Source: Synechococcus sp. BL107 (lineage in GTDB: Bacteria > Cyanobacteriota > Cyanobacteriia > PCC-6307 > Cyanobiaceae). Taken from it: a DNA stretch of 64,000 nucleotides. Shown one piece after another: positions 33,718 through 49,106 of the stretch. Each line of letters starts with the position of its first letter. The stretch's first letter is position 1. A program made the position numbers and the translations under genes. Location: the NCBI RefSeq assembly GCF_000153805.1, contig NZ_DS022298.1, positions 380,616 to 444,615 of the forward strand, in the 5' to 3' direction. A model generated the notes under the pieces. That model saw only the letters and a list, made by a program, of their open reading frames with translations. It was not told the DNA's origin and ran no database searches.

Positions 33718-34158
33718 ATGACTGTTTCCGTAACTGAATCATTGATGGTGGCCAAAAAAGCCAAGGGTCTCAGTTTTGCTGACCTTGAGTCTGCGATGGG
33801 GCTGGATGAAGTTTGGATTGCTTCTTTGTTTTATGGCCAGGCCACAGCATCGAAGGAAGAAGCGGAGAAGTTAGCTGGTTTATTGTCTCTTGATTCCGCT
33901 ACAACGGCAGCGTTGCAGGAGTTTCCAGTGAAGGGCAGCTTGGATCCCGTTATCCCAACTGATCCCTTGATTTATCGCTTTTATGAGATCATGCAAGTTT
34001 ATGGAATGCCCCTTAAAGATGTAATTCAAGAGCATTTTGGTGATGGCATTATGAGTGCAATCGACTTTACGCTTGATGTTGATAAAGTGGAAGATTCAAA
34101 AGGTGACCGTGTAAAAATTACGATGTGTGGAAAATTTCTTCCCTACAAAAAGTGGTGA
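33718..34158 (+). CDS. cynS: Cyanate hydratase (cyanase)
   Basis: CynS decomposes cyanate with bicarbonate to ammonia and CO2, allowing growth on cyanate as nitrogen source. The 146-aa product has a helical N-terminal domain ([19 protein letters not shown]) and the catalytic C-terminal domain with [19 protein letters not shown] and [17 protein letters not shown], containing the Arg, Glu and Ser active-site residues of the decamer. The ATG at 33718 gives standard length. A strong terminator follows. No cyanate transporter genes lie next to it here. It looks more AT-rich than the TrpD-like gene beside it. Confidence 0.97.
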
Positions 34159-34223: not shown

Positions 34224-34952
34224 TTAGTTTCGGAATTGTTGAGCGAGCTGTTGGCTGGCCATTTTTCGACGTTTTTCATTAGTCAGCGATTGGCTTATTT
34301 CAAGCAAGCAACGTTGACTGGTTGATGTTCCAATGCAGCCCAGAGCACGTATTGCAGCATCGGAAATGGAGTCAGAACCAGTTTCTGATAACTCAGATAA
34401 TCGTTCAGAAATCGCAGCACCATCGCGCCGTTGAAGTAAACGAATCGCAGCAACCACTACGGCATCGCGAAAGTCTTGAAGGGCTGGTTCGCAGAGGTTG
34501 AGAAGGTTCTGATCGTTCAAGGTGTAGGCACGAAAAACTAGCAATTGCAGTCCTGCTAGCCGTTGTTGTTGTGCTGGATGCTTGAGGCAGTCCATCACGA
34601 TGTGCTGTGGAACATCGGCACCCCAGCACGACAGTGCTTGTACAAGGGTTAGCTGAAGATTGTCATCGTGCTGCTCACCGCTATGGAGTTGTTGAACTAG
34701 CCAATCGCGAGATTCAGGTTGGTGGCTGAGACCAGCAGCCATGACTAAATCTGGCTCTAAGCCATGCTCTTGCAATAGAAACTGGATGATTGGCCAGCCT
34801 CGTTCAGCGAGCATTCCTAGTTTTTCGCAGATCGCTCGACGCAGATCAATAGAAAGGCTGGGGGAGTAGTTCTCCCCCAGCCAGGAAGGCTCTAAAGGAG
34901 CCTGTCTTGATTGCGCGAGCCGCTCCCAAAGAACGGACTCGTCACTATGCAT
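34224..34952 (-). CDS. Helical-repeat (HEAT-like) protein in the nitrite cluster
   Basis: The 242-aa soluble protein is mostly amphipathic helices with recurring LxxLLxxR-like spacing; segments such as RDAVVVAAIRLLQRRDGAAISERL and ISDAAIRALGCIGTSTSQRCLLEI look like HEAT-type repeats. No catalytic motif is seen. It starts 6 bases after the nitrite transporter stop, so it belongs to the same transcript as focA and possibly nirA. Helical-repeat proteins often act as scaffolds or assembly factors; a role in nitrite-transporter or reductase assembly is only inferred from context. Confidence 0.75.
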   Translation of the reverse strand: MHSDESVLWERLAQSRQAPLEPSWLGENYSPSLSIDLRRAICEKLGMLAERGWPIIQFLLQEHGLEPDLVMAAGLSHQPESRDWLVQQLHSGEQHDDNLQLTLVQALSCWGADVPQHIVMDCLKHPAQQQRLAGLQLLVFRAYTLNDQNLLNLCEPALQDFRDAVVVAAIRLLQRRDGAAISERLSELSETGSDSISDAAIRALGCIGTSTSQRCLLEISQSLTNEKRRKMASQQLAQQFRN

Positions 34953-34958
34953 GGTTTG

Positions 34959-35845
34959 TTAGCGGGCACCAAGCTCGGCTGCCAATTCACGTTCCAGTTT
35001 GTCATCGTGCTCGGTGGGGAGCACGTTCTCCATGGTGGTGCGATGGGTGCTGTAGAAGAGCATGCCAATAAACACCATTCCTCCGATGATATTGCCGAGA
35101 GTGACAGGCAGGAAGTTCCAAAATATTACTTTTGTAAAAGGAACTCCAGATCCAAGTATTGGACCAGCCGTATGTAAGAACTGATTTACCACGATGTGCT
35201 CCATGCCCATTGTTTGGAATGCAGTGATCGGTAGCCAACAGGCGAGAAGCTTGCCTGGAACGCTTTTGCTGACCAAAGCCATGGTGACGCCAAGACACAC
35301 CAACCAGTTCGCAACAACGCCACGAAGGAAAGCGAGGAAGAAGCCCATGCTGCCCAGTGCTTCGTACTTTTTCTCAACGTTGATTTGATTGAGAGCAACG
35401 ATTTTTTGAGCAACTAGGTCCCATATTGGTGGCCCAATGTTGTCGGCAGAAGCATCCATTGTTCCGCTGGTCAGGCTGACGGCCATGATCAGCGCAACAA
35501 CTGCGGTACCAATGAAATTACCAATCCACACCCAAGTCCAGTTGCGGAAAGTGGCTCCCCAGGTGCTCTTGCCCGCCCAAGTTGCCATGGGAAGTAGAGC
35601 AAAGTTTCCGGTGACGAGTTCCATGCCAAAGAGCACGATGCTGGCGAAACCGAAGGGGAAGAGTAAGGAGCCAACAAAGGGTAATTTTGTCAGGATTCCA
35701 ACTGTGAGCGCAAGAATCACAGCCAATCCAAGAATGGCGCCGGAGTAAAAGCCACGAATCAGCAAGTTTTAATGCTGACTGTTGCCTTTTTGCCGCCGGC
35801 AGTAATCATGCCGTCGACAAGTTCATTCGGAAGGACGTAATCCAT
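34959..35845 (-). CDS. focA: FocA/NirC-family nitrite transporter, N-terminal frameshift
   Basis: The family forms pentameric channels for formate or nitrite. The frame from 35765 (268 aa) encodes the helical pore: LLIRGFYSGAILGLAVILAL, GMELVTGNFALLPMA, and LVCLGVTMAL, but the only start is TTG and the usual cytosolic N-terminal helix is missing. An ATG at 35845 encodes exactly that part (MDYVLPNELVDGMITAGGKK) in the adjacent frame and hits TGA at 35761-35759. One extra A in the A4 run (35767-35770) would rejoin them as SIKNLLIRGF. Thus this is either a true one-base deletion, a sequence error, or reinitiation at TTG overlapping the TGA. It sits between nirA and a helical-repeat gene. Confidence 0.85.
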
Positions 35846-35884: not shown

Positions 35885-36019
35885 TTAACCGCTGATGCGG
35901 TTCATAAAGCGTGAAAAAAGATCTGAGTTGCCGCCATCACGAGATACAGCGGTCTTGTCTGCTCCGCTGGAGCTCAGCCAGTTGACGAAACGAGAGAAGA
36001 GATCGTTTTGGGAAGCCAT
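35885..36019 (-). CDS. 44-aa protein with a duplicated DLFSRF motif
   Basis: The frame from ATG 36019 encodes a 44-aa product containing two copies of a short motif: NDLFSRFVNWLSS near residues 4-16 and SDLFSRFMNRISG near 32-44, joined by a Ser/Gly/Asp-rich linker. The repeated amphipathic helix suggests a small binding or bridging peptide. It lies between nirA and the nitrite transporter in the same direction. No Shine-Dalgarno site is clear, and I do not recognise the family. Confidence 0.5.
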   Translation of the reverse strand: MASQNDLFSRFVNWLSSSGADKTAVSRDGGNSDLFSRFMNRISG

Positions 36020-36113: not shown

Positions 36114-37661
36114 TCAGTGTTTAAGTTTTTCTGTGGCGCCGAACTGTTCGATGAGGACGTCTTTCAATACCGATTTAATCTGTTCAGCTGGTACAGATTT
36201 TTGATGTAGCTCACCAAGAGTTGGATTGGCTCCTTGTGAACCGCCGATGGTGATGGTGTAGCCCTCACCCATCACACCATCGCTATTTTTCGCTTTGGTG
36301 CCAGTGAGTCCGATCGCGCCCATGTAAGCCTGGCCGCAAGTATTGGGGCAGCCTGTCCAATGAATTTTCAGCTCGTCGGGAAGGTTCAGTTCAGCATCCA
36401 GTTCATGGGCTGCTTTGAGAGCTTGATCTTTGGTATTGGTGAGTGCAAAGCTGCAGTAGGTGCTGCCTGTGCAAGACACTGTTCCTGCTGCAATGGTGCC
36501 AGGCTCTAAAGGAAAACGTTGTAGTAAAGGATCTGCTTTCAGTGCGCCGACTGTGTTCTCTGAAATGCCAACGAGAATGACATTTTGGTCTTCTGTGAGT
36601 CGTATTTCTCCGCTGCCATATTGAAGGCTAGCTGTGGATAAATCATGAAGATCTTGAGCTGTTAAACGCCCTACTGGAACGTGCAAGCCTGCAAAGGAAA
36701 GACCTTCTTGTTTTTGAGGGTGGATCCCATAATGAGAACGGGGCTCTGCATTAAAGACAGAACCGGGATCCGGGGTGAGGGGGCCGAAGCGTTCTTCCAC
36801 CATTGCCCTGAAGGCATCGAGTCCCACTTCATCGAGATACAGACGGAAGCGTCCTTTGGGCCGTTTGTCACGCTCGCCGTTGTCACGCCAGATTTTGACG
36901 ACCGTTGCAGTCATGTCACAGATCTGATCGGGCGTTACCCAAGCATTCAGAGGTAGTGCATAAGCATTGAGCTGTGAGGAAAGAATCCCAGCTATCCAAA
37001 CCCCAAATCCCATCACACCGTTGTGCTCTACGGGATGGAAAATAATGTCGTTATGAAGTAAAAAATTATCTTTTGATCCGGCAACGGCGGTGTTCCATTT
37101 GCGTGGAAGGTTGGAAAATTCGGGATTTCCCTCACAATTATTCGTGAGGAAGTTCTGAAGCTCGGTTGTGTATGGTCGTGTGTCGATAATTTCTTCGGGA
37201 TCGATTCCTGCCAGAGGATTGCCAGTCACATTGCGAGGGTTATCGAAGCCAGACTGAATTGAACTCAATCCTGCTTCTTTTAAACGTTTTAGGATTTCAG
37301 GAAAATCTCCGAGGAGAACGCCACGAAGTTGAAGATTTTGACGAGTCGTGATATCGCAGCTTCCATTTTCTCCGTAACGCTCAACAATTGATGCAATAAC
37401 TCTGAGCTGCTGAGCTGACAAAACACCGTTGGGAACTCTAAGGCGAAGCATAAACTTGCCCGGTGTTTTGGGGCGCCAGAACATCCCATACCACTTCAGA
37501 CGGAGTTGTAAATCTGTTTCATCAACTTGTTCCCAGCCCAGCTCAGCGAATTGATCAATTTCGCTGCCAACGAGTAGACCATCTTTATTGGCTTTATTTT
37601 GCTCAATTTTGTTGAGCTTCTTGCCCTCTAGATAAGGCTTGGTTGGGGAACTTGCTGTCAT
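36114..37661 (-). CDS. nirA: Ferredoxin-nitrite reductase
   Basis: NirA reduces nitrite to ammonium using six electrons from ferredoxin with siroheme and a [4Fe-4S] cluster. The 515-aa product has the ferredoxin-sulfite/nitrite reductase half-domains (RVPNGVLSAQQLRVIASIVE near 77; ITTRQNLQLRG near 107) and the cluster cysteines CTGSTYCSFALTNTK near 400 and GCPNTCGQAYMGAIGL near 439. The ATG at 37661 is preferred to a TTG at 37673. The neighbouring cobA and CbiX-like genes make siroheme. Upstream, at 37800-37813, is only an imperfect NtcA-type site. Confidence 0.97.
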   Translation of the reverse strand: MTASSPTKPYLEGKKLNKIEQNKANKDGLLVGSEIDQFAELGWEQVDETDLQLRLKWYGMFWRPKTPGKFMLRLRVPNGVLSAQQLRVIASIVERYGENGSCDITTRQNLQLRGVLLGDFPEILKRLKEAGLSSIQSGFDNPRNVTGNPLAGIDPEEIIDTRPYTTELQNFLTNNCEGNPEFSNLPRKWNTAVAGSKDNFLLHNDIIFHPVEHNGVMGFGVWIAGILSSQLNAYALPLNAWVTPDQICDMTATVVKIWRDNGERDKRPKGRFRLYLDEVGLDAFRAMVEERFGPLTPDPGSVFNAEPRSHYGIHPQKQEGLSFAGLHVPVGRLTAQDLHDLSTASLQYGSGEIRLTEDQNVILVGISENTVGALKADPLLQRFPLEPGTIAAGTVSCTGSTYCSFALTNTKDQALKAAHELDAELNLPDELKIHWTGCPNTCGQAYMGAIGLTGTKAKNSDGVMGEGYTITIGGSQGANPTLGELHQKSVPAEQIKSVLKDVLIEQFGATEKLKH

Positions 37662-44732: not shown

Positions 44733-45272
44733 ATGCAAGCCAAAGCTGTTGTCACCATGCACACCATTGGTGAAATTAATCGCTTAATGGCTGATGCTGG
44801 TGTGATGAAACGTTCGCTTATCTCTGCCAATCACTGCTTCGCTTTCGAGCGGGATTTTGTGGGAACTTGGCGTTGTATTCCACTTTGTGTTCGGCGCAAA
44901 TTGGACTTAATGGGGCTGAAGCTGAAGTTGAGTCATTGGTTGGAGCTGTCGCAGACCCAGCGCCAAGAATTGGTGGATTGGTCGGATGCTCCAGATGCCC
45001 TTGAACAGTGTCGGGAGACGTTGCGCTCTCTGACTCGATCGATGGCTGATGGCATGGCGAAGGATCTTGCTCCAGCCGTGGATACGCCATGGCAGCAAGT
45101 TCATGCCATGCCGGTTGAGGTGGCTGATGCTGCGACAGCGCGCGGGGTGCGGTTGACTGCAGCGCAGTGGGCGAACTTGTCTGAGTTGGATCGATTTTGT
45201 CTTTGTAAGTTGGTCCGCCCTGGGCATGACCATCACAACCTGGCGGCAGCCTTCAGCGAAGTGTTGGGGTGA
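44733..45272 (+). CDS. narM: Nitrate reductase associated protein (NarM)
   Basis: This 179-aa protein has FAFERDFVGTWRCIPLCVRRKLDLMGLKLKL near 37-67, the signature of the nitrate-reductase-associated family, followed by SHWLELSQTQRQELVDW. In Synechococcus elongatus NarM is needed for active nitrate reductase, probably in maturation. The ATG at 44733 is used; an inner ATG at 44757 is possible. It converges with narB, overlapping by 20 bases. A loose NtcA-like site (GTA-N8-AAC) lies just upstream. Confidence 0.88.
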   Translation: MQAKAVVTMHTIGEINRLMADAGVMKRSLISANHCFAFERDFVGTWRCIPLCVRRKLDLMGLKLKLSHWLELSQTQRQELVDWSDAPDALEQCRETLRSLTRSMADGMAKDLAPAVDTPWQQVHAMPVEVADAATARGVRLTAAQWANLSELDRFCLCKLVRPGHDHHNLAAAFSEVLG

Positions 45273-47484
45273 GCAGACGGCGCAGTGCTTCCAGCCGCCC
45301 CTTCTCTTGTTCGATGGGCTTCACCACCGACACCGCCGCCGCCACGATCACAGCACAGGCTTTCAGCTCGGGCTGCTTTGAAATAGGACAGGCTTGATCG
45401 TGCATCAATGTGTTGGCTTCGCAGGCGCTCTCTTGGGTAAAGCCCCAGTGCATCGGCAAGAACACGGAGCCGCGTCGGATCTTGTCGGTCACCTTCACTG
45501 TTGCGGTGATGTGTCCACGGCGAGAGCTGATCGCTGCCAATTCACCGTTTACAACGTTGAGTTCTTGGGCATCGCCGGGGTGAATCTCTAGAAGGGGTTC
45601 GGGATGCATGCTTCGCAGACGCTCCACTTTTCCAGTGCGGGTCATCGTGTGCCATTGCCCGAGGTAGCGCCCCACCGTCAGCACGAGTGGATAGGTGTCG
45701 CATGGGGGTTCAGCGAGGCCCAGCGGTTGGTCGATCGAGAAGCGTGCGCGCCCGGATGGCGTTGCAAACCGATGGTCGGTGTAGAGCCGTTTGGATTCGT
45801 GGGGGGTGGTGCTTTCGCTTGGACATGGCCATTGTTGAGGCCCCTCCTCTGCAAGTAAGGCATGGCTGAGGCCAGACATATCGCAGAGTCGGCCTCGGGT
45901 GAGCTCAGCAAATTCGGCATAGACGTCAGCGGCTGAGTTGAAGCGGAACTGCTTCTCGAAGCCGAGTCGTTGTCCCACCTCTGCAAACACTTCCCAGTCC
46001 GGGCGGCTTTCGCCAAATCGGCGGCGGTAAGCGGGGCAATAGGTGACTCTGCGCTCCGAGTTCGTCATGGCTCCTTCCTTCTCACTCCATTGGGCGGCAG
46101 GTAGGAGTAAGTGGGCGTAATGGGAGGTTTCGGAATCGGCGTAGGCCTCACTCACCACGACCAAAGGACACTTGCTCATGGCAGCTTTCACCCTGTCCAG
46201 ATCAGGCATGCTGACGAGGGGATTGGTTGCGGCCACCCACCAGAGGTCGATCTCGCCCCTCTCCATCGCTTCGATCTGTTGCCAAGCGGCAAGACCGGGT
46301 GTGGCTGCGATGCTGCCGGCTGGAAACTTCCAAGCTTGCTCAACGTCCTGCCGATGTTGATCGTTAGCGACCAACCGATAACCCGGAAGTAGGTGGGATA
46401 GACCACCTGCTTCACGGCCGCCCATGGCGTTGGGTTGCCCCGTCAAAGAGAAGGGGCCAGCTCCCTCTTTGCCGATTTGTCCGGTGAGTAAATGCAGGTT
46501 GATCAGGCCGCACACCACAGCGGTGCCTTCTTGCCGCTGGTTCACCCCCATCGACCAAAGGCTGAGGACGTTTTCACGGCGGTGGAATAATTGCGCCACT
46601 TCCCGTAATCGCTTTTCGGGGAGGTTGCAGAAGCGGGCTACGCGCCTTGGTGTCCAGCGGGCTACGACGTCGAAAAAGGCTTCGTAGTTTTCGGTGTGGT
46701 CATCAATGAATGCTGGGTCTTGGCCGTTTTCTCGAAGAACCAGGTGAGCGATGCCGTGAAGCAAGGCAAGGTCACTTCCTGGTGCAATTGGTAGGTGGAT
46801 GTCTGCTGCTTTAGCGGTATCGGTTCGGCGGGGATCGACGACGACGATCGTGACGCTTCCGGGATTGCGTTTTTTTCGTTTGAGTAGACGCTGGAACAAC
46901 ACGGGATGGCATTCGGCCGTGTTGGTGCCAATCAGGAATGCCACGCTGCAGTGATCGAGGTCGTCGTAGCAGCAGGGCGGGCCGTCAGATCCGAGGCTTC
47001 GGGTGTATCCAGCCACGGCTGAACTCATGCACAGCCTTGAGTTGGCATCAAAGTTGTTGGTGCCAAGGGCACCCTTCATCAGCTTTTGGGCGACGTAGTA
47101 GTCCTCTGTGTGGAACTGACCAGAGCCATACATCGCAATGCTATTAGCGTTGCCTCGACGCTCCAAACTGCAGGCCATTTGCTTGGTGATTCGCTCAAGA
47201 GCGTCATCCCAACTAATGGCTTCAAAATTGTCATTGAAACTGCTGCGAAATAGTGGTTGGCGGAGCCGACCACTGGCGAGGGTCTCGCCGACGGTGGCAC
47301 CTTTGATGCACACCTGACCGAGGCTTGAAGGATGTTGCCGGTCGCCACGGGCTGTCCACATTGGGTTGCCTTCCGCATCCCGACGAACGGCTCGACCTTT
47401 CTCAGCAGGGGGCAAGAGTTCCAGGCCGCAGCCCACTCCGCAGTAGGGGCATTGGCTGCGCACGCTGCGGGGGCTTTGGGTCAT
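45253..47484 (-). CDS. narB: Ferredoxin-nitrate reductase
   Basis: NarB reduces nitrate to nitrite with ferredoxin electrons, using Mo-bis-MGD and one [4Fe-4S] cluster. The 743-aa product starts CPYCGVGCGLELLPP with the cluster cysteines near 13-20 and the fourth in GQVCIKGATVGETL near 57. Molybdopterin regions follow: IAMYGSGQFHTEDYYVAQKL near 118, SLWSMGVNQRQEGTAVV near 312, and the C-terminal PLVLTVGRYLGQWHTMTRTG. Length fits the cyanobacterial family. An intrinsic terminator lies between it and the upstream transporter gene. Confidence 0.97.
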   Translation of the reverse strand: MTQSPRSVRSQCPYCGVGCGLELLPPAEKGRAVRRDAEGNPMWTARGDRQHPSSLGQVCIKGATVGETLASGRLRQPLFRSSFNDNFEAISWDDALERITKQMACSLERRGNANSIAMYGSGQFHTEDYYVAQKLMKGALGTNNFDANSRLCMSSAVAGYTRSLGSDGPPCCYDDLDHCSVAFLIGTNTAECHPVLFQRLLKRKKRNPGSVTIVVVDPRRTDTAKAADIHLPIAPGSDLALLHGIAHLVLRENGQDPAFIDDHTENYEAFFDVVARWTPRRVARFCNLPEKRLREVAQLFHRRENVLSLWSMGVNQRQEGTAVVCGLINLHLLTGQIGKEGAGPFSLTGQPNAMGGREAGGLSHLLPGYRLVANDQHRQDVEQAWKFPAGSIAATPGLAAWQQIEAMERGEIDLWWVAATNPLVSMPDLDRVKAAMSKCPLVVVSEAYADSETSHYAHLLLPAAQWSEKEGAMTNSERRVTYCPAYRRRFGESRPDWEVFAEVGQRLGFEKQFRFNSAADVYAEFAELTRGRLCDMSGLSHALLAEEGPQQWPCPSESTTPHESKRLYTDHRFATPSGRARFSIDQPLGLAEPPCDTYPLVLTVGRYLGQWHTMTRTGKVERLRSMHPEPLLEIHPGDAQELNVVNGELAAISSRRGHITATVKVTDKIRRGSVFLPMHWGFTQESACEANTLMHDQACPISKQPELKACAVIVAAAVSVVKPIEQEKGRLEALRRLLTPTLR

Positions 47485-47564: not shown

Positions 47565-49106
47565 TTAGGCCACTTCGCCTTCATGCAACTCATCGAAGGA
47601 ACCTTTGGGTTCCTTGAGGAAGAAGAAGCAGAAGAAGGCGACGATCAGACCAGCTACACCCAGGATCTGGAAGAAGGCGCTGTTGGAAGCAGCGATCACC
47701 TCGGGAGTTGGTTCTCCGCCACCGCCCATCCACATCGGCAGAAGGCTGAAAATCGTGAGGTAAGTCACGGCACCAACGTTGCCGTAGGCACCGACGAGTC
47801 CGGCCACCTGTCCGGTGATGCGACGTTTGACAAGGGGGACCAGAGCAAATGTTGCCCCCTCGCCGGACTGCACGAAGAAGGACGCGAGCATGGTGATCGC
47901 CACGGCTATGACGATTCCAGTGGTGCCGGTGAAGGTACCGGGTTTGATCATGCTCATCACCAAGTAGCCGACTCCCAATCCAGCGGTGAGGAAGCCCATC
48001 GTGTTTTTCCGGCTACCAACTTTGTCGGAGATCAGGCCTCCAGCAGGACGGGCGACCAGGTTCACGAAGGCGAAGCAAGACGCCAGGATGCCTGCTGTGG
48101 CTTTCGGCAGATCGAATGTCGTTTCAAAGAAGGTCGGCAGCATGGACACCACCGCCAGCTCGGAGCCGAAGTTCACGATGTACGTGAGCTCCAAAATGGC
48201 AACTTGGCGGAATTCATAACGGTCTTCTTTGGGATAAACCTTGGTGCCAAGAATCAGTTCTCGATTGGTTCGAATAATTCCCCAGGTTTGGAAAGCAAAC
48301 CAAACAGCCACGGCGCCAATGGCCAGTGGGTAAGTGCCCGCATTCAGGAATCCAACTTTTTGCAGGCGCCAGCAGAGCACGCAAAGAATGGCTGCGAAGG
48401 GAACATTCATTCCCAGCAATCCCCAGAAATCACGCATCGAGGTGACTTCTAAACCTGCGGTTCTCGAAGGGCGTTGGTAGGTCTTGCCCGGAGGTGTATC
48501 GGTGACGTTGAAGAAGTAGAAAATGCCGTACGCGGCAGAAATGATGCCGGTGATGGCAATGGCTCCACGCCAGTTCAAAACCGCACCAGTTGGTAGTTCA
48601 AATCCACCGGAGAACGACAGGAAGCCGGCGAGGGCCACCATGGTGAGAGCGGAAAAGGCGGAGCCAAAGTTGCCCCAGCCGCCGTAGATGCCCTCGGCTA
48701 AGCCGATCTCTTTGGGTGGGAACCATTCAGCCACCATGCGGATTCCGATCACGAAGCCGGCGCCAACGATGGAGAGCAGCAGACGAGCCACCACCAATTG
48801 GTTGAAATCCTGTGCCGACGCAAACAGCAGGCAGGGGATGGCTGAAAAGACCAGGATCCCTGAGTAGGTGAGCCGAGGCCCGTATTTATCGAGCAGCATG
48901 CCGATGAGCACGCGAGCCGGGATGGTGAGGGCCACGTTGCAAATAGCCACGGTGCGGATCTGACCCAGCGTGAGTCCGAGATCCGCTTTAACGGTGGTAG
49001 CAAGAGGGGCCAGGTTGAACCAGACCACGAAGGTCAGGAAAAAGGCGAACCAGGTGAGGTGGAGGGTTCGATACCTTCCCTGGAACGACCAAAGGTCGCG
49101 AAGCAT
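47565..49106 (-). CDS. nrtP: Nitrate/nitrite permease, MFS NNP family
   Basis: This 513-aa, 12-helix protein is the high-affinity nitrate/nitrite transporter of marine cyanobacteria (also called napA). Visible are LTWFAFFLTFVVWFNLAPLA in TM1, VICNVALTIPARVLIGMLLDK-like motif near 53-72 (seen as AICNVALTIPARVLIGMLLD), and IYGGWGNFGSAFSALTM near 138, the NNP nitrate signature region. A long cytoplasmic loop separates the halves. A perfect GTA-N8-TAC box lies 145 bases upstream of the ATG. It is followed by an intrinsic terminator and narB. Confidence 0.95.
   Translation of the reverse strand: MLRDLWSFQGRYRTLHLTWFAFFLTFVVWFNLAPLATTVKADLGLTLGQIRTVAICNVALTIPARVLIGMLLDKYGPRLTYSGILVFSAIPCLLFASAQDFNQLVVARLLLSIVGAGFVIGIRMVAEWFPPKEIGLAEGIYGGWGNFGSAFSALTMVALAGFLSFSGGFELPTGAVLNWRGAIAITGIISAAYGIFYFFNVTDTPPGKTYQRPSRTAGLEVTSMRDFWGLLGMNVPFAAILCVLCWRLQKVGFLNAGTYPLAIGAVAVWFAFQTWGIIRTNRELILGTKVYPKEDRYEFRQVAILELTYIVNFGSELAVVSMLPTFFETTFDLPKATAGILASCFAFVNLVARPAGGLISDKVGSRKNTMGFLTAGLGVGYLVMSMIKPGTFTGTTGIVIAVAITMLASFFVQSGEGATFALVPLVKRRITGQVAGLVGAYGNVGAVTYLTIFSLLPMWMGGGGEPTPEVIAASNSAFFQILGVAGLIVAFFCFFFLKEPKGSFDELHEGEVA

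Follow-up and report, generated by a model that had tools for sequence, protein, structure and literature searches.

The window analysed here, a stretch of 64,000 nucleotides from Synechococcus sp. BL107, contains a nirA gene followed by focA (also called nitM), the gene for a nitrite transporter, whose reading frame is broken by one base close to its 5' end (Table 1). The arrangement around the break is conserved: nirA lies upstream of focA with only a small open reading frame (ORF) between them, a HEAT-repeat gene lies downstream, and this whole cassette of nirA, small ORF, focA body and HEAT gene is kept. Among 95 loci compared from related genomes, 93 contain a relative of nirA and 94 a relative of the HEAT gene. 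The nirA coordinates use an assumed start, the ATG at codon 5 of an ORF listed with a TTG start. We take the names narB and nrtP for the two genes at the far end of the region from the usual gene cluster.

Table 1. The nirA–focA cassette and associated genes, in window coordinates.
Feature	Position	Strand	Description
cynS, cyanase	33718..34158	+	Cyanate_lyase domain
HEAT-repeat gene downstream of focA	34224..34952	-	PF13646, 31.6 bits (cut-off 27.7)
focA/nitM body, Form_Nir_trans	34959..35765	-	PF01226, E 4.1e-57, profile positions 21-239 of 240
focA/nitM 5' piece	35759..35845	-	28 codons plus stop; first 26 residues as in G006
A4 run at the frame break	35767..35770	-	five A in the nearest relative, G006
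TAA closing the body frame just upstream of the TTG	35769..35771	-	read from the sequence
44-residue small ORF between nirA and focA	35885..36019	-	E <= 1e-3 in 84 of 95 relatives' loci
nirA, ferredoxin-nitrite reductase	36114..37661	-	NIR_SIR domains
presumed narB-type nitrate reductase	45253..47484	-	molybdopterin oxidoreductase domains
presumed nrtP (napA), MFS nitrate/nitrite permease	47565..49106	-	MFS_1 domain

Judged by its sequence, the interrupted gene is the known FNT-family nitrite transporter focA/nitM. A first-pass annotation had already called it a FocA-type transporter, an identity that both the comparison with relatives and the Pfam profile PF01226 bear out (193.7 bits for the body, against a cut-off of 34.6). 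The body keeps a charged C-terminal end, and an FNT family search of the BL107 genome found this one place only, with one TAA inside the match. With the NCBIfam models formate_focA, NirC and fnt, both the window body and the intact protein of the nearest relative (genome G006) score below every FNT cut-off (for fnt, 145.4 and 149.7 respectively, against 232.3), so the gene bears the name FocA by custom and not through these models. It resembles NitM, described in 2015 (PMC4390861), in belonging to the same family, in its tight linkage to nirA and in its charged C-terminal tail, and differs from it in that the first 26 codons of the BL107 gene are in another frame. NitM of PCC7002 is reported to carry nitrite when expressed in S. 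elongatus NA4, and of its oceanic orthologs that of CC9605 is active, whereas those of CC9311 and MIT9313 are active only without the conserved C-terminal tail (PMC4390861). The natural truncation in CC9605 is C-terminal, and the protein is still active (PMC4390861). Two genomes that we compared may likewise lack the C-terminal tail, to judge from FocA/NitM matches ending at residue 275 or 272 of 295 (G239:C1:2467254-2468078 and G014:C30:20520-21335).

On the minus strand, the ATG at 35845 opens a frame of 28 codons that ends at a TGA (35761-35759) and encodes MDYVLPNELVDGMITAGGKKATVSIKTC (35845-35759). The body of the gene, 268 codons from a TTG (35765-35763) to a stop at 34959, lies in the -1 frame with respect to this ATG. 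Instead of one open frame including the N-terminal helix, as in an intact NitM/FocA gene, there is a one-base deletion in a run of four A (35770-35767) at codon 26/27, close to where the first long helix begins. The ATG, the A4 run, the TGA and the frame of the body are all as the first-pass annotation placed them; its reading of the first frame was right in including SIK but left out the ATV that precedes SIK and the TC before the stop, and the TTG that it described as overlapping the TGA in fact ends one base before it. All 26 residues encoded before the break are identical to the N-terminus of the G006 protein, and the body is 98.9% identical to that protein, so the split is not a chance juxtaposition of frames. 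A family search of 300 genomes also divides the BL107 match over two frames. We saw no second frame defect along the gene. Runs of this kind are ordinary in the window, because it has 277 A/T runs of exactly four bases. As written, the gene would direct ribosomes to make a 28-residue peptide and then stop, and cannot give its normal protein.

To compare the N-terminal region we used 97 loci, two of them from the BL107 genome itself and 95 from relatives (15, plus the best 80 of 101); each species is represented by a single genome in the sets used, and the 95 loci are not all independent, some genomes seeming to be present in both sets. Every one of the 95 is open from MDYVLP through K(N/D/Q)LL, and only the BL107 genome is one base short. 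In G006, which has 90% DNA identity, the run is five A long, against four in the window, and a substitution lies close by. The wider family search gives the same picture: 133 of the 300 genomes, BL107 included, have a focA match, and none of the other 132 has a stop inside it. In 130 of these the match covers the site of the break, and all are open there; matches in G048 and G270 start after the site, the one in G040 is cut later, and the one in G285 is split, with one of its two pieces covering the site. The relatives thus agree with the first-pass view of a one-base lesion, and the nearest of them has the A5 run which that annotation had suggested looking for. No stretch matching the local sequence turned up in viral contigs. 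A literature search found no paper on a frameshift mutation in a nitrite transporter of marine Synechococcus; within the accessible text of PMC6370341, "frameshift" appears only in the title of a reference.

The body of focA has evolved under constraint. Relative to G006 its dN is 0.0066 and its dS 0.459, a ratio of 0.014, which is close to the background dN/dS of 0.01425 given for the main site class of focA in PMC6370341. The 71 differences in 269 codons are split 5/0/66 by codon position. They replace three residues, two on the BL107 lineage and one on that of G006, as polarised with 17 outgroup loci drawn from the 30 of 95 that align without gaps. If the BL107 branch had been unconstrained throughout, about 112–168 neutral replacements would be expected, as against the 2 seen (one-sided 95% limit 6.3), so that no more than about 4–6% of the branch can have been free of constraint; this parsimony bound is approximate and varies with the way in which dS is divided between the two branches. 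We therefore find no relaxation of constraint, in keeping with the original description of the transporter body as otherwise undamaged, and a real loss, if there was one, must have been very recent. An old pseudogene is rejected on the same figures, a dN/dS of 0.014 and no second lesion in the gene.

What has to be explained is a lesion that is absent from the relatives compared and sits in front of an undamaged body in a kept cassette, and we considered whether a protein could be made despite it. A restart after the TGA at the TTG (35765) would give a transporter lacking its first 26 residues, and we regard this as improbable. A TTG one base upstream of a stop has a spacing that permits coupled restart, as is the case here; the body still scores 193.7 bits with PF01226, and in the structure predicted for the intact protein of G006 (helices spanning 7-20 and 25-53; mean pLDDT 75, averaging 53 over the first ten residues and 73 over the next ten) it would keep nearly all of the first long helix. 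In addition, the N-terminal region is not a universal feature of FNTs, as only 38% of 22,242 of them can be aligned there (PMC12559229). Against restart, TTG is a weak start codon, by eye we saw no Shine-Dalgarno-like stretch at the right distance from it, and the codon is not conserved among relatives. The part lost is also the most conserved, with 20 of 26 residues invariant among 37 proteins compared to 139 of 269 in the rest. The G006 model resembles E. coli FocA (PMC12559229; PDB 9g49, 9i3k, 3kcu) in its predicted FNT fold and in a helix before the first long helix (TM-score 0.71 over the query and E 2.3e-8 with 9g49, at about 25% identity; its match to LciA, 9v2a, has an E-value of 5.3e-10), although E. 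coli FocA transports formate and, unlike the BL107 gene, is intact. In that protein Y25, K26, T28 and K29 are reported to be crucial for formate translocation in both directions (PMC12559229). Among the lost residues K20 and T22 align with K26 and T28, whereas the position of Y25 is occupied by K19, which is not a tyrosine, and the alignment ends before K29. Restart is disfavored by the loss of these 26 residues, which form the most conserved stretch and include two that align with crucial FocA residues, and, by analogy with a distant relative, it would probably not give a normal transporter. An elaboration of it, a two-piece transporter in which the 28-residue helix peptide is combined with the TTG-restarted body, the helix acting in trans or being dispensable and nitrite entry being re-tuned in the absence of the N-terminal element, seems to us highly improbable. 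Equally far-fetched is a full-length protein made from the A4 allele by programmed frameshifting or transcript slippage. The break does sit in a run of identical bases, but the run is only four A long, and the codons there (ATT AAA ACT, with the body in the -1 frame) contain by eye no X_XXY_YYZ heptamer; if the lysine tRNA slipped by -1, it would sit on a TAA. No relative has the arrangement (0 of 95 loci, and 0 of the 130 other genomes covering the site). A programmed -1 frameshift gene is rejected, for want of a slippery heptamer in frame and of conservation, and recoding is not credible.

This leaves an error in the record or a mutation in the strain, and we judge a residual error and a very recent loss to be nearly equally likely, with a slight lean, which we infer, towards error. 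The most probable single cause, to which we give an even chance, is that one residual base error was left in an assembly that is otherwise good. On this account focA would be intact in the BL107 strain itself, and the record would be one base short in a short run of A. BL107 was published as an unfinished whole-genome shotgun sequence and CC9902 as a complete one (PMC2441476). A survey of 624 kb of the BL107 genome against its neighbor G006, covering ORFs of at least 60 codons with an ortholog (500 and 501 in the two directions), gave 13 rows of candidate frame breaks (12 genes) in BL107 and 9 in G006. Sorting these by eye on the codon-position pattern kept two one-base breaks with coding sequence on both sides in BL107 (focA and an SNF2-type helicase) and one break in G006; candidates were dropped where the second segment seemed to lie upstream of the presumed start or lacked a third-position pattern, and rows 23 and 90 were ambiguous, as was row 583, the mirror of row 90. 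The helicase break is outside the window (L113), at about 515972-516030 of G000:C1, just before QATDRAYRIGQ, and the last 80 codons of the gene are 98.75% identical to G006. The G006 case (G006:C1, about 267,900; sample 642714-642738) concerns a 345-codon BL107 gene, methyltransferase-like on our reading, whose counterpart in G006 is split over two frames, both sides of the break showing a coding pattern. With two kept breaks in 624 kb the BL107 assembly is not full of errors, and two breaks against one in G006 do not mark it as poor. A second one-base break with an undamaged downstream part, in the helicase, fits sparse residual error. The survey cannot tell whether a rare break of this kind is an error or a mutation. 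Slippage in homopolymers is also a normal natural mutation, and the one-base pattern fits it equally well; a true and very recent loss of focA by slippage in the A run, in nature or in culture, leaving only NrtP for nitrite, is a serious contender at somewhat below even odds.

The gene is accessory: 167 of the 300 family genomes have no focA match (109 of 196 among those at least 90% complete). Among the genomes listed, five without focA belong to the same genus and are at least 98% complete (G007, G008, G020, G023 and G125), and four of these have NirA and NrtP matches, G008 having neither; loss is therefore tolerated in the genus. Across 13 focA-less genomes searched, from 20 listed of the 167, NirA was found at E <= 1e-60 in nine, four of them at only 48–50% identity, and NrtP in six. 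In G007 the NrtP match (G007:C1:2274559-2276096) is in two overlapping frames, and the nitrate/nitrite permease of that genome may be broken. Natural truncation of nitM is on record, in CC9605 without the C-terminal tail, and one CC9605 culture differed from the published nitM by one base (PMC4390861); Synechococcus genomes from Station P are reported to have lost the whole nitrate/nitrite pathway (PMC10545762). Against loss stands the small unconstrained share of the branch, at most about 4–6%, which means that it would have been caught very young. Moreover, a look at the DNA within about 1.5 kb of nirA in G125 and G007 turned up no small ORF and no HEAT gene, unlike in BL107, and NirA is 75% identical, though G020, which also lacks focA, keeps a HEAT gene beside nirA. 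By gene neighborhood and identity G125 and G007 appear to resemble those Prochlorococcus LLI that have type II nirA and no focA (PMC6370341). Like BL107 as written, some of these LLI strains would assimilate nitrate without a working nitrite transporter, but they lack focA and have a distinct type of nirA, whereas BL107 has the cassette, short of a single base. Of the three possibilities that the first-pass annotation had left open, restart at the TTG is now disfavored, while loss and base error are unseparated, with the proviso that a loss must be recent.

The small ORF between nirA and focA goes together with focA. In the set of 300 genomes, which are not independent, 114 of the 115 with the small ORF have focA, and 19 of the 133 with focA have no match to the small ORF. 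G093 and G122 each carry a NirA with a copy of the small ORF fused at its C-terminus, followed downstream by one or two free copies (L168 865-2562; L169 1080-2810), and open frames of about 555–579 suggest a similar fusion in other genomes of genus g71. The fusion and the association with focA hint that the small ORF may encode a partner of NirA. An ORF of 44 residues and its likeness to nitrite reductases were already known from WH7803, where it is cotranscribed with nirA and nitM (PMC9430850). The possibility that it is NirP1 is rejected: NirP1 has a conserved Cys and three Trp and is described as absent from Prochlorococcus and most marine picoplanktonic Synechococcus (PMC10907346), whereas the small ORF contains a single Trp and lacks Cys. 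It matches no NCBIfam family, and its Pfam match is sub-threshold only, which we take as chance.

Whether the break is an error or a loss, knowledge about the gene itself is unchanged. In the case of an error, tables of the presence and absence of nitrogen genes should be read with caution. A loss would not in itself be remarkable, because four of the five listed focA-less genomes of the same genus have NirA and NrtP matches. Nitrite uptake varies across marine Synechococcus and Prochlorococcus (PMC6370341, PMC10545762). The affinity of NrtP is reported to be much lower for nitrite than for nitrate, with NitM giving high-affinity nitrite uptake (PMC9430850), which fits the earlier proposal that uptake would then rely on NrtP. 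If the break is real, BL107 would be a strain without a high-affinity route for nitrite that retains nirA and nrtP, and would offer a snapshot of a first step in the loss of nitrite uptake.
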